Shown here one piece after another: positions 11,633-18,419 of a DNA stretch of 23,403 bases. The first letter of the stretch is position 1. Each line of letters opens with the position of its first letter. Source of the stretch: a virus. The notes beneath the pieces were generated by a model. That model saw only the letters and a list, made by a program, of their open reading frames with translations, made no database searches and was not told where the DNA came from. Both the position numbers and the translations under genes were made by a program. Location of the stretch: positions 1-23,403 of the IMG/VR virus record IMGVR_UViG_3300025099_000150; one strand, 5' to 3'.

Positions 11633-11698
11633 ATCTCCCTTTTGTTTTTACTAATTAAAGTGGTGGAGTATGTGCTTGTTTTGTACTCACCTTATTAT

Positions 11699-11726
11699 AT
11701 TATACACGATATCTCCTAGTTGTCAA
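11699..11726 (-). promoter_or_regulatory. Late-operon promoter, leftward (TTGACA-N16-TATAAT)
   Basis: Read on the minus strand, TTGACA (11726-11721) and TATAAT (11704-11699) are both perfect sigma70 hexamers with a 16-base spacer. The expected start is near 11692, giving a leader of about 60 bases before the small terminase gene. It faces away from a second perfect promoter at 11757-11784. The shared inverted repeat TTGTCAAGT/ACTTGACAA (11720-11728 and 11755-11763) brackets an A/T-only stretch that could serve as an UP element. Confidence 0.88.
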
Positions 11727-11756
11727 GTTAATTCTAATAAAAAAATTATTTTTTAC

Positions 11757-11784
11757 TTGACAAAATGGCACACAGGTGTATAAT
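11757..11784 (+). promoter_or_regulatory. Divergent promoter, rightward into non-coding DNA
   Basis: TTGACA (11757-11762) and TATAAT (11779-11784) are both perfect sigma70 hexamers, 16 bases apart, with GTGTATAAT as in the leftward promoter. The predicted start is near 11791. No plus-strand gene follows before the minus-strand genes at 12453, so the product should be a non-coding transcript or the initiation event itself may matter, for example as a replication primer. Confidence 0.85.
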
Positions 11785-12020
11785 AGAACTACCCCCTTAC
11801 CCGGGGGCTTACACCCTGTATACAGATAGACCTATAAGGGTTCCCGCAGGGTCAAGCGTTTACTAGTTTACAGGGTAAATTCTATAAAAATATACTGACT
11901 TTGTATAAAGACTCCCCAGTACCCTAGGGTGGCCCACGCCTGCCCCCCTAATAAATCTATATATTCCGCCATTTTATAAGAGGGTAACAAATGACTAATT
12001 GTGACTAATTACAACTACCT

Positions 12021-12080
12021 GTTACGATAATTACAGTTATCATCTAGGATAAATTTAAGTCTGGTACGATAACAGTTATT
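12021..12080. repeat. Direct repeat with GKTACGATAA core, 42-base period
   Basis: GTTACGATAA (12021-12030) and GGTACGATAA (12063-12072) are each followed within three bases by ACAGTTAT. The same GGTACGATA element forms both arms of the inverted repeat at 16271-16328, so it recurs in both major non-coding regions of the window. It could be a binding site; its protein is unknown. Confidence 0.6.
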
Positions 12081-12106
12081 AACATCCTACAAGCAAAAAA
12101 GGGGCT

Positions 12107-12165
12107 TAATCGGGTACGCCCTCGGGTAAACCCGTTAATAATAAAAACCTAATCGGGTACACCCG
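12107..12165. repeat. CGGGT-type dyads and direct repeats, 43-base period
   Basis: TAATCGGGTAC occurs at 12107-12117 and 12150-12160, exactly 43 bases apart. CGGGTAAACCCG (12123-12134) and CGGGTACACCCG (12154-12165) are 12-base dyads of the form CGGGT-N2-ACCCG. Repeated dyads on one face of DNA in non-coding sequence are typical of operators or origin iterons. No regulator is identified. Confidence 0.65.
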
Positions 12166-12389
12166 CCCACGCATAAAAAGCTTAATGACATTTTTTATTA
12201 TATCTAAGGTATTTTTAAGGTCATCCCCAAACTAGTTTCTAATTTATTCTAGCCTTATCCCCTAGCCCATTTGCGAACACTACGAACCCTAAAAAGCCTT
12301 AGATTTACACATATAAACCACTAATTAAACCTAAATGTAAACTAGGGTTAGAACCTCAATAAAACTAGTAAGAACCGCAATAAAACCCG

Positions 12390-12422
12390 AAATAAAAAAC
12401 CCCGCTTTTTAGGGCGGGGCTA
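12390..12422 (-). terminator. Intrinsic terminator, leftward (copy 1)
   Basis: Read on the minus strand, a CCCCGCCC...GGGCGGGG-like hairpin (CCCCGC paired with GCGGGG, short A/T loop) is followed by TTTTTTATTT. It ends the three-gene operon at 12453-13272. The 33 bases are identical to 13342-13374. Confidence 0.92.
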
Positions 12423-12452
12423 GGAAGGAATAATATGAAAGTTTAATAAATA

Positions 12453-12527
12453 TTATTTAAAGTAAAATGCAAGTAAAAAGATACCTACACACATTAAAAG
12501 CATAAATAGGATAAAATCACTTAGCAC
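12453..12527 (-). CDS. Possible 24-residue membrane peptide (copy next to terminator 1)
   Basis: A 75-base frame starts with GTG at 12527, overlapping the end of the preceding gene by 11 bases, with GGGGG five bases upstream. It encodes MLSDFILFMLLMCVGIFLLA plus FYFK, a single predicted transmembrane helix. It stops 31 bases before an intrinsic terminator. An equally long hydrophobic frame precedes the identical terminator at 13342-13374. Hydrophobic short frames arise easily in A/T-rich DNA, so this is tentative. An internal ATG at 12503 would give 16 residues. Confidence 0.35.
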   Translation of the reverse strand: MLSDFILFMLLMCVGIFLLAFYFK

Positions 12528-13341: not shown

Positions 13342-13374
13342 AAATAAAAAACCCCGCTTTTTAGGGCGGGGCTA
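13342..13374 (-). terminator. Intrinsic terminator, leftward (copy 2)
   Basis: This 33-base sequence is identical to 12390-12422: a G/C hairpin with an A/T loop followed on the minus strand by TTTTTTATTT. It ends the transcription unit containing the DUF932-like gene. Only four bases separate it from the -35 box of the next promoter. Confidence 0.92.
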
Positions 13375-15895: not shown

Positions 15896-16252
15896 TCAAA
15901 CATTTTTATAATTTATTTTTGATTTTATTTTTAGTGTATCTAATATATTTTTTTCTTGTTTTGTTTTTTGTGTAAATAACCTAAAATTTTTTAATAAGTT
16001 CTTAAATGTGTTAGGGTACTTACGCAAAAGATTTGTTTCATAAGTTGTATTGAAATAGAGGCTAGGTAACGCTGACATTTTTATGCTGACATTTTTTCGT
16101 AAGGCTATGTCATATACGCTGACATTTTTTCTAGCACCTTTTATAAAGTATAGTCTGCCACCCGATTTAAATTTTGTGTGATGATATCTACCAAAATCTG
16201 CATCGACAAGTATCCAATCGGTTGACATTTTATTTTCTGTTGACATTGACAT
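15896..16252 (-). CDS. Lys-rich small protein containing AAAATGTCA repeats
   Basis: This 118-residue basic protein of unknown function begins MSMSTENKMSTDWILVDADF and has a mid-section RLYFIKGARKNVSVYDIALR followed by KNVSIKMSALP. At DNA level TGACATTTT occurs five times in the gene (16073, 16087, 16120, 16223 and 16247), in more than one reading frame, so the repetition is not driven by a repeated peptide alone. The start at 16252 has AAAGGGGG upstream; later in-frame ATGs at 16246 and 16228 are possible. It is the first gene after the 400-base structured gap. Confidence 0.68.
   Translation of the reverse strand: MSMSTENKMSTDWILVDADFGRYHHTKFKSGGRLYFIKGARKNVSVYDIALRKNVSIKMSALPSLYFNTTYETNLLRKYPNTFKNLLKNFRLFTQKTKQEKNILDTLKIKSKINYKNV
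16071..16130. repeat. Three copies of GCTGACATTTTT(T)
   Basis: Copies at 16071-16082, 16085-16097 and 16118-16130 are identical over 12 bases. On the coding (minus) strand two copies read Lys-Asn-Val-Ser and one reads Lys-Met-Ser-Ala in a different frame. Related TGACATTTT copies lie at 16223-16231, 16247-16255 and 12186-12194. Confidence 0.85.
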
Positions 16253-16270
16253 TTTACCCCCTTTGTTAGT

Positions 16271-16657
16271 GTAGGTACGATAGACACGCTTTGTCCGAAG
16301 AGCTTACTAGTAAGATTATCGTACCTACCAAGACAGCACACGCTTTAACACGGCTTATCTTGTTTGTTGTTTAGGGGTAAGGACTTACAGATATATCTAC
16401 CATGCCCACTCCTAAACATGTTGTGAAGTAATTTTGCGACTCGTGGACACTGCATACTTCTTGTGGCATCCGCCATTGGCGTGGAACTTCCACAATTAAA
16501 TGTTACCTACATTTAAACAAGGGCAAGTAGGGAACTAGCACTTGCACTAGAGGTACACTTTGGACTATGCTTATTGCACATTCTAGGTCATACCCGAGCC
16601 TATCTCATTTTTTGTGTTGTTGAGAACAACCACCCAAGCGTTTAGCTTTCACTAAAC
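16271..16657. ncRNA. Candidate structured RNA: chain of nested stems
   Basis: This occupies the roughly 400-base gene-free gap 16253-16651. By eye it is an almost continuous chain of inverted repeats. P1 is a 12-base GTAGGTACGATA/TATCGTACCTAC (16271-16282 and 16317-16328), enclosing palindrome CTTACTAGTAAG (16303-16314). P2 is CAAGA/TCTTG (16329-16333 and 16358-16362). P3 is 11 pairs (16368-16378 and 16408-16418), enclosing GTAAG/CTTAC and AGATATATCT. P4 is GAAGTA/TACTTC (16425-16430 and 16455-16460). P5 is TTGTGG/CCACAA (16461-16466 and 16490-16495), enclosing CGCC-ATT-GGCG. P6 is TTAAATGT/ACATTTAA (16496-16503 and 16509-16516). P7 is GCAAGT/ACTTGC (16523-16528 and 16540-16545). Two further hairpins lie at 16616-16630 and 16640-16657. 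Strand is uncertain. Neighbouring genes would place it in the leftward transcript, while two G-U-compatible pairs favour plus. Confidence 0.6.
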
Positions 16658-16825
16658 ACTATCTCTTTTATCTGCATTGTTTTTTGCCGTCAATAAAATT
16701 TTAGCAAAGTTATCCACAGGATAAAACTTTTTTATGTAACATACAGTACAATACCAAATAGTATCTGTTGCTCTTATTGTAGGTACACTAACTTTACAAC
16801 TCATACACTTTTTGTTATCTGCCAT
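16652..16825 (-). CDS. Small zinc-ribbon-like protein
   Basis: From the ATG at 16825 this is 57 residues, with two CxxC pairs, CMSC (Cys7/Cys10) and CTVC (Cys26/Cys29), the arrangement of a small zinc ribbon. It could bind nucleic acid or a host protein. A GTG at 16834 would add three residues; I prefer the ATG. It overlaps the upstream HExxH gene by 25 bases. The stop codon lies within the last hairpin of the structured gap. Confidence 0.72.
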   Translation of the reverse strand: MADNKKCMSCKVSVPTIRATDTIWYCTVCYIKKFYPVDNFAKILLTAKNNADKRDSV

Positions 16826-17157
16826 ACTAACCACTCTTTTAGTTCACTTCTCATAAATAATTCTGTTGTAAAATTTGCATAAGAATTGACAATAGTTTCT
16901 TCTTCTTTATCTTTTAGTAAGTACTGGTAGAAGCCAAGATGAAAAAACTCATGTATTAAAACATTAACAGCATCCATACCACCATCAGAAATAATTTCTT
17001 CATCTAAAAATATTTTATATGGTGGCTTACCTAAAAAAACTCCTTGAGCATCAGAAATTTCGTAGGCAACTTCATGCGGTATTAAAACTATTTCTACTTT
17101 AAATGCACCTAGAGTGACATGTTTTGGTAACTTAACTAATTTTTTATTCGCTGACAT
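16801..17157 (-). CDS. HExxH zinc-protease-like phage protein
   Basis: This 118-residue protein contains VLIHEFFHLGF, a complete HExxH motif (His69, Glu70, His73), in the centre of a predicted helix. It is followed about 13 residues later by EEETIVNSYANFTTELF, where a Glu could be the third zinc ligand. The size and layout fit minimal gluzincin-like phage proteins that I recall from many phages. The N-terminal half is beta-rich (HVTLGAFKVEIVLIPHEVAY). No signal peptide is present, so it acts in the cytoplasm. Substrate unknown; host-protein cleavage or a structural use of the fold are both possible. It overlaps the upstream gene by 14 bases. Confidence 0.8.
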   Translation of the reverse strand: MSANKKLVKLPKHVTLGAFKVEIVLIPHEVAYEISDAQGVFLGKPPYKIFLDEEIISDGGMDAVNVLIHEFFHLGFYQYLLKDKEEETIVNSYANFTTELFMRSELKEWLVWQITKSV

Positions 17158-17809: not shown

Positions 17810-18124
17810 TTAACTCCCCACATACATATCAGTTTTTTTACAAGGCATACAAAACCTATCAAACTTACTCTGTATATCAAATTGTTTTTGGCAAAGGTTA
17901 CAAGTTCCCCTACCTATAGTTTTAAAGTAATAGTTATGACTTGCCCCCCTTGTTTGTTTTTTTACTTTGTATCCATCCTTCTTTTTTTGTCTATGTAACT
18001 TACCTAACACAGCATTTTTAGTAGTTCCTAATTCCCTACCTATCTCTGTCATAGTCATATTAGTTTTAGATAACCTAACAGCTTTTTTAAAGTTATCATC
18101 TGTCCATTTAAAAGGTTGGTTCAT
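17810..18124 (-). CDS. GcrA-like regulator with zinc finger
   Basis: This 104-residue protein begins with a GcrA-type DNA-binding domain: FKWTDDNFKKAVRLSKTN, then MTEIGRELGTTKNAVLGKLH (25-44). In alphaproteobacteria GcrA binds sigma70 RNA polymerase and certain methylated promoters to control cell-cycle genes. The C-terminus has CNLC (75/78) and CMPC (92/95), a probable zinc site not required in classic GcrA. As an early phage gene it may redirect host transcription or control phage promoters. AGAGGT upstream of ATG at 18124 supports the start, which overlaps the upstream gene by 17 bases. Confidence 0.82.
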   Translation of the reverse strand: MNQPFKWTDDNFKKAVRLSKTNMTMTEIGRELGTTKNAVLGKLHRQKKKDGYKVKKQTRGASHNYYFKTIGRGTCNLCQKQFDIQSKFDRFCMPCKKTDMYVGS

Positions 18125-18354: not shown

Positions 18355-18382
18355 CAAAAAAAAAATAAAAAAATAGTTGACA
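18349..18382. repeat. Inverted TTGACA boxes around a 20-base A-tract
   Basis: TGTCAAC (18349-18355) and GTTGACA (18376-18382) are perfect inverted repeats flanking 20 bases made only of A and T, nearly all A. It forms the core of the divergent control region between the leftward and rightward early operons and could act as a shared UP element or as an operator. Confidence 0.8.
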
Positions 18383-18404
18383 TTAATTTTTGTTAGTTTA
18401 AAAG
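18377..18404 (+). promoter_or_regulatory. Rightward replication promoter candidate (TTGACA-N16-TAAAAG)
   Basis: TTGACA (18377-18382) is followed after 16 bases by TAAAAG (18399-18404) and then GG. The start would fall near 18411, on top of the AGGAG of the primase gene, giving an extremely short leader. The geometry is matched on the other strand, which supports it despite the weak -10. Confidence 0.5.
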
Positions 18405-18419
18405 GGTTTTAGGAGTGGG

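Follow-up and report, generated by a model that had tools for sequence, protein, structure and literature searches.

The locus studied here raises a simple question: what is carried by a gap without genes, inside a phage operon, in which inverted repeats follow one another almost without unpaired linkers? The gap lies in a 23.4-kb virus record (IMGVR_UViG_3300025099_000150), analyzed at its full length and called the window below. A first-pass annotation, made from the letters alone, had proposed a structured RNA at 16253-16651. Our analysis leaves little doubt that the locus encodes a noncoding RNA of conserved structure on the minus strand. It is a row of about ten modules joined end to end, which marine phages exchange among themselves as whole units.

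Genomic setting and extent of the array

On the sequences of its terminase, DNA polymerase and primase, the window phage is grouped with the HMO-2011-type podoviruses, and the closest isolate for the DNA polymerase is Pelagibacter phage HTVC033P (47% identity). Structural genes and small early genes point leftward, replication genes rightward. The gap sits in the leftward operon, downstream of a small zinc-ribbon-like gene (16652-16825, minus strand; 57 aa, MADNKKCMSCK...WYCTVC), which is a conserved neighbor found in most window-type relatives, and upstream of a 118-aa gene of unknown function and without family match (15896-16252, minus strand). No ORF of at least 50 aa lies wholly inside it in the ORF list of the window, so that the absence of a gene stood as first described. 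The interval itself had to be redrawn: the array occupies approximately 16660-16271 of the minus strand, in the sense of the operon, its 5' end falling on the stop codon and last codons of the upstream gene, slightly beyond the gap, while 16253-16270 is the ribosome-binding region of the 118-aa gene and stays outside. The G+C content of the array is 0.39, against about 0.30 in the surroundings. A possible promoter seen by eye just upstream of the first module has a short spacer and lies within coding sequence, and is not claimed.

Several other features were observed in the window. Within the 118-aa gene, GCTGACATTTT occurs three times (16071-16128) and is absent elsewhere (0 expected), and AAAAATGTCAGC is repeated in the same gene of relatives. 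On the minus strand, 16801-17157 encodes another 118-aa protein, with a HEFFH (HEXXH-like) motif and no family match, whose homologue in AP013540 is annotated as a peptidase, and 17810-18124 encodes a GcrA-like protein with a Pfam score just under the cut-off. GcrA is a type of cell-cycle regulator of alphaproteobacteria. A terminator-like hairpin of 20 bases, CCCCGCCCTAAAAAGCGGGG followed by TTTTTTATT, has two copies in the leftward operon (minus strand, 12400-12419 and 13352-13371; 0 expected). A second gap without genes (11633-12516, 884 bases), with raised G+C content, contains several palindromes rich in G+C as well as a terminator; just ahead of the terminase-side genes it has a strong sigma70-like promoter that points leftward (TTGACA...TATAAT).

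Modules of the window RNA

Read along the minus strand, the modules follow in the order P1-A-D-F-F2-E1-I-B-C-G. P1 (16637-16660) is a AGTGTTTAG/CTAAACGCT hairpin capped by a GAAA tetraloop, and its 5' arm overlaps the upstream stop codon; relatives have larger domains in place of the loop. Module A (16603-16636) consists of TGGGTGG followed by a predicted H-type pseudoknot with stems S1 (GUUGU/ACAAC) and S2 (UCUCA/UGAGA) and an A-rich third loop. A second pseudoknot is predicted in D (16551-16602), where the GGGUA loop of a UAGG/CCUA hairpin pairs with a downstream UACCU, with the conserved AAUGUGCAAUAAGCAUAGUC between loop and partner. F (16518-16550) is a GCAAGU/ACUUGC stem-loop conserved in six arrays, with so little variation that its structure is weakly tested. 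The short hairpin F2 (16496-16517; UUAAAUG/CAUUUAA), recognized from the sequence, reads UCAAAUG/CAUUUGA in L044 and L066, which makes one two-sided change.

E1 (16461-16495) has a UUGUGG/CCACAA stem and the tip CCACGCC-AAU-GGCGGAUG; a tip of the same kind on a different stem is found in the E2 module of other arrays. The GAAGUA...UACUUC hairpin of I (16425-16460) is present in only three near-identical copies and has no covariation support. B (16368-16418) is the most strictly conserved module, with a GGAGUGGGCAUGGUAG...UAUAUCUGUAAGUCC core enclosed by a UGUUUAGG/CCUAAACA stem and an exact 18-mer present in 17 IMG/VR contigs. C (16329-16362) is a CAAGAUA/UGUCUUG hairpin with a AGCCGUGUUAAAGCGUGUGCU tip, and G (16271-16328) a 12-bp GUAGGUACGAUA/UAUCGUACCUAC stem with variable interior. 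All the stems and butt-joined borders first described were recovered in our sequence and repeat analysis: C starts at 16329 directly after G, E1 at 16461 after I, and F2 at 16496 after E1.

Considered alone, the window sequence is moderately unusual. Folded as RNA it gives z-scores of -1.9 (plus strand) and -2.2 (minus strand), with 3 of 100 shuffles folding as well, and folded as DNA a z-score of -3.4, reached by none of 100 shuffles. The 12-bp perfect stem was equalled in 1 of 500 shuffles; three perfect stems of at least 7 bp were observed against a shuffle mean of 1.1, a number reached by 51 of 500 shuffles. Folding against shuffled controls on both strands, a check proposed from the start, is thus modest for the window (z near -2) and mostly strong in relatives, where z-scores range from about -4 to -7 (lowest, near -7, in L062 and L085), with L052 and L066 as modest as the window. 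These z-scores leave the RNA strand undecided. It is the relatives that decide the case.

Module shuffling among relatives

Homologous loci were gathered by searches with the flanking genes. Besides the window, the element is present in 26 IMG/VR contigs, some of them near-identical. The B core pattern was found in 17 contigs, the A pattern in the same set minus one, and the D pattern in 12 contigs, 8 of them new; L085 was found in addition. In 84,980 bacterial and archaeal genomes, the B core gave 13 matches in unrelated taxa, about the number estimated for chance, and these were taken as such. The window RNA had no credible match in collections of phages and plasmids, and the other arrays matched only HTVC105P among phages. 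The unannotated gap of this cultured SAR11 phage (Autographiviridae; L095 1905-2050) contains one module of 46 bases (87% identity, E = 1e-5), shared with L064, in which the stem changes keep pairing. Large hairpins also occur in unannotated gaps of HTVC033P (L092 2160-2250 and 4250-4370), but these only look alike and homology was not shown.

The arrays vary in length from about 200 to 840 nt. In a probe map of 23 of them, modules are gained or lost from array to array, and some are present twice (A in L010, D in L065) or in a different order; pairwise comparison finds the same modules in other order and company. T is the first module in L063 and the last in L062, L064, L055 and L066; Q precedes D in L064 and L067 but comes after it in L063; and M-type and N modules lie ahead of D in L062 and L064 and behind a D in L065. 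Tips, too, change stems: the C tip caps the terminator stem in L085, and two hairpins of L065 carry one common tip on different stems. Blocks common to arrays break 11.7 predicted pairs, against 19.7 for random blocks. This automatic test of the break points favors intact helices, although not cleanly, since MFE structures and BLAST ends are imprecise. The distance from B to C takes values of 58, 98, 111, 121 and 215 nt, and such variation by non-multiples of three indicates that the region is not protein-coding. The conserved open frame that would have refuted an RNA was therefore not met, and a protein-coding reading was rejected on this irregular spacing and the lack of an ORF in the gap.

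The first-pass annotation had likened the locus to large ornate phage RNAs of the GOLLD or ROOL kind. The structured RNA stood, but it does not look like a single fixed fold; it looks rather like a chain of shuffled modules that fold separately. One large fixed RNA, a scaffold or cage with a P1-A-B-C core and variable peripheral helices, could account for the constant P1-A-B-C-G order in window-type arrays, and GOLLD, too, combines a conserved region with one that is less so (PMC12286853). We regard it as improbable, given that arrays upstream of the primase mostly lack A and B or keep only parts of them, that module order is not fixed, and that no Rfam family was matched.

Covariation and the RNA strand

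Compensatory changes, sought in another check proposed with the first description, are present in the homologue set. In P1, compared over 7 loci, 61 of 63 cells are paired and 6 of 9 pairs show two-sided changes; the L052 copy keeps the pairing with an almost entirely different sequence. With both stems of A considered, 99% of cells are paired and two S2 pairs show two-sided changes; its covariation score was reached by none of 500 shuffles, and pairing falls to 27-56% when the partners are slid. The second stem of A reads UCUCA/UGAGA in the window, UCUAG/CUAGA in L013, UCUCG/CGAGA in L007 and UCUCG/CGGGA in L019. Both helices of D have two-sided changes (UAGG/CCUA vs AUGG/CCAU; GGGUA/UACCU vs GGAUA/UAUCC). 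All 96 cells of G are canonical over 8 loci, with 7 of 12 pairs changed on both sides. When the 3' strands were permuted, the observed pairing was reached in 44 of 1000 cases for P1, in none of 1000 for G, in 115 of 1000 for the second stem of A alone, and in about a quarter for D, for which only four rows were available.

For P1, D and G, the paired strands were cut out of the loci and matched by hand, so this is not a blind test, and the evidence for P1, D and A rests on few distinct sequences. A further stem set, "H", had been chosen as hairpins; its pairing is by construction and it was excluded from the evidence. B and C are nearly invariant and therefore untestable by covariation. At the level of sequence, the comparison demonstrates that stems are kept by compensatory mutation while the tips stay strictly conserved, that is, selection on structure. 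In a hand tally of the departures from Watson-Crick pairing in the P1, A, D and G helices, 16 G.U stand against 3 A.C, an excess that points to the minus strand as the RNA.

Insertion sites and predicted promoters and terminators

Modules are found at more than one site, in the leftward as well as the rightward operon, and the neighboring genes vary from site to site. The leader of the primase gene has no modules in the window (18380-18419), L044, L046 and L058. Other relatives fill it differently: L053, L088 and L089 have a single S module there and L047 a variant of S, L052 combines R with a D-like module, and L055, L062, L064, L066 and L085 carry whole arrays. In L054, the rightward strand bears an S module and the leftward strand a B array; in L055, one strand bears them all. 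Matches to modules lie in the sense of transcription on either strand, except two that resemble chance matches in genes. Since modules follow transcription and not genome orientation, this is the main argument for their acting as RNA. A third site, empty in the window, lies in the interval that separates the 118-aa gene from the next gene; L058 (9375-9485) and L052 (3615-3715) have single long hairpins there.

The same orientation speaks against a reading of the gap as a DNA element, such as a replication origin, the main alternative at first, or operators. The DNA-strand folding (z = -3.4) and a perfect TTATCCACA at 16710-16718 could be cited for it. We consider this reading very improbable and rejected the origin, as this box is in a coding frame, DnaA-type boxes are within chance (3 found vs 1.8 expected, a single DnaA box likewise within chance) and form no cluster, and the covariation tolerates G.U; phage-specific initiator sites were outside this test.

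Filled and empty sites, modules lying within the loops of other modules and recurrent AAGTTTA-type joints would also suit selfish or mobile hairpin elements that spread by recombination or homing without benefit to the phage. In L056 the array is directly followed by an ORF (1855-2300) whose match to HNH is weak, and the L019 array has the start of a similar ORF at its end. That match is below the Pfam cut-off and such ORFs stand beside only two arrays, while compensatory stem evolution and strict tips imply selection on the fold; with the sense-only orientation and the apparent promoters and terminators, these points make a selfish origin unlikely in our opinion. The small ORF of L056 could drive homing of its region.

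Promoter-like sequences of the sigma70 type, strong by consensus, precede the array in five relatives: TTGACA-17-TATAGT in L055, L066 and L085 (11/12), TTGACA-17-TATAAA in L067 (11/12) and TTGACA-16-TATAAT in L063 (12/12). In L055, L066, L085, L062, L064 and L065 the array ends with a strong hairpin and a T-rich tract, a predicted intrinsic terminator. TTGACT lies in the 3' arm of this hairpin and, together with a TATA-type hexamer 17 nt beyond it, forms a putative primase-side promoter. Terminator and primase promoter occur together in six phages, three of which also have the upstream promoter-like site; the arrays of L062 and L064 begin near a contig end, which leaves any promoter of their own out of view. 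From matches to consensus promoters and terminators, without mapped transcripts, we infer that some relatives are arranged to make the array as a transcript of its own. After the window array, no terminator was found.

These arrangements weigh on a role in cis, by which the modules would shape stability, processing or translation of the neighboring mRNA (5' protection, handling by RNase III/E, attenuation). The window array is intercistronic and ends a few nucleotides ahead of the next ribosome-binding site, and the single S or R modules lie in the primase 5' leader directly behind the promoter, which fits such a role. On the other hand, neighbor genes differ among sites, in six phages the array is cut off from the gene by an apparent terminator and a new promoter for the primase, and generic stabilizers would not need strictly conserved tips. 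We therefore find this explanation doubtful, if less so than a selfish origin; because the window has no dedicated terminator, a cis role there is not excluded.

Possible function of the array

A trans-acting role of the array RNA seems to us possible but remains short of an even chance, with no expression data, binding partner or phenotype to support it. We suggest that the array could work in trans as a polyvalent docking RNA, in which each conserved tip would bind one host or phage factor and the stems would serve as exchangeable handles. A phage might then alter the displayed set by gain, loss or re-ordering of modules. The window array would travel in the mRNA of the leftward operon. The purpose would most likely be to neutralize host functions or defenses early in infection. 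Use against host or defense is only the guess that we favor: the module content shows the turnover of an accessory island, and there are known phage RNAs that imitate RNAs of host defense (PMC3475682, PMC10651486); no tip has been paired with a known defense target. Somewhat more tentatively still, the arrays may represent a class of phage RNA not described before: combinatorial arrays whose cassettes fold independently, bear conserved recognition tips and are recombined to change the RNA-protein repertoire.

Accessory diversity of phages has mostly been studied as proteins, and here the shuffled units are RNA folds. If the proposal is true, marine phages would carry an accessory or anti-defense island at the RNA level, and, should every tip bind a host factor, the list of modules would be a ready natural set of RNA ligands. 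The arrays occur in relatives of HMO-2011 and of pelagiphages, which infect very abundant marine bacteria. The presence or absence of modules across phages makes function testable, and the module in the cultured HTVC105P makes experiments possible.

Comparison with known systems

The expectation of a structured RNA outside described families was borne out by the covariation among homologues and by Rfam. At gathering thresholds, no family was found in the window or in 18 related loci, GOLLD, ROOL and the IMES/Ocean motifs included, and up to E = 10 no family, preQ1-I included, matched window 16200-16700; a preQ1-I riboswitch was accordingly rejected for module A. Permissive matches were to unrelated eukaryotic families or weak (freshwater-2, 20 bits with a cut-off of 50; hairpin ribozyme, 15.6 bits with a cut-off of 65) and were taken as chance. 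A tRNA or tmRNA reading was discarded, ARAGORN finding no tRNA in the window or in 13 loci. A ToxI-like type III toxin-antitoxin system was also discarded, since almost every array has only one A (L010 has two) and no toxin family was found among the neighbors. The literature searched has no description of such arrays, with thin coverage of subscription papers and preprints.

GOLLD resembles the array as a large phage noncoding RNA of marine samples with pseudoknots, a conserved beside a variable part and unknown function (PMC12286853). The array differs in having no Rfam match, in modules exchanged and re-ordered between sites, and in lacking tRNA neighbors. GOLLD is often near tRNA islands. 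ROOL is similarly a large multi-helix phage RNA with pseudoknots and unknown function, while the array lacks its Rfam match and any single conserved architecture, at about 200-840 nt.

Pseudo-ToxI is a pseudoknot RNA by which a phage acts against a host system (PMC3475682). Its likeness to module A, as that of ToxI, is only an analogy of working as a pseudoknot RNA, since the array has no tandem repeat of one unit, no shown similarity to ToxI and no toxin gene identified nearby. The Racr RNA anti-CRISPRs are small phage noncoding RNA units occurring as separate elements (PMC10651486) and in this are like the modules; similarity of the array to CRISPR repeats is not established, without a comparison to host repeats.

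Mobile hairpin elements are known, for example, as the double-hairpin elements of fungal mitochondria. They share with the array the filled and empty sites and the insertion of hairpins into hairpins, whereas the array is set apart by its strict tips, its sense-only orientation and, in some phages, an apparent promoter and terminator of its own.
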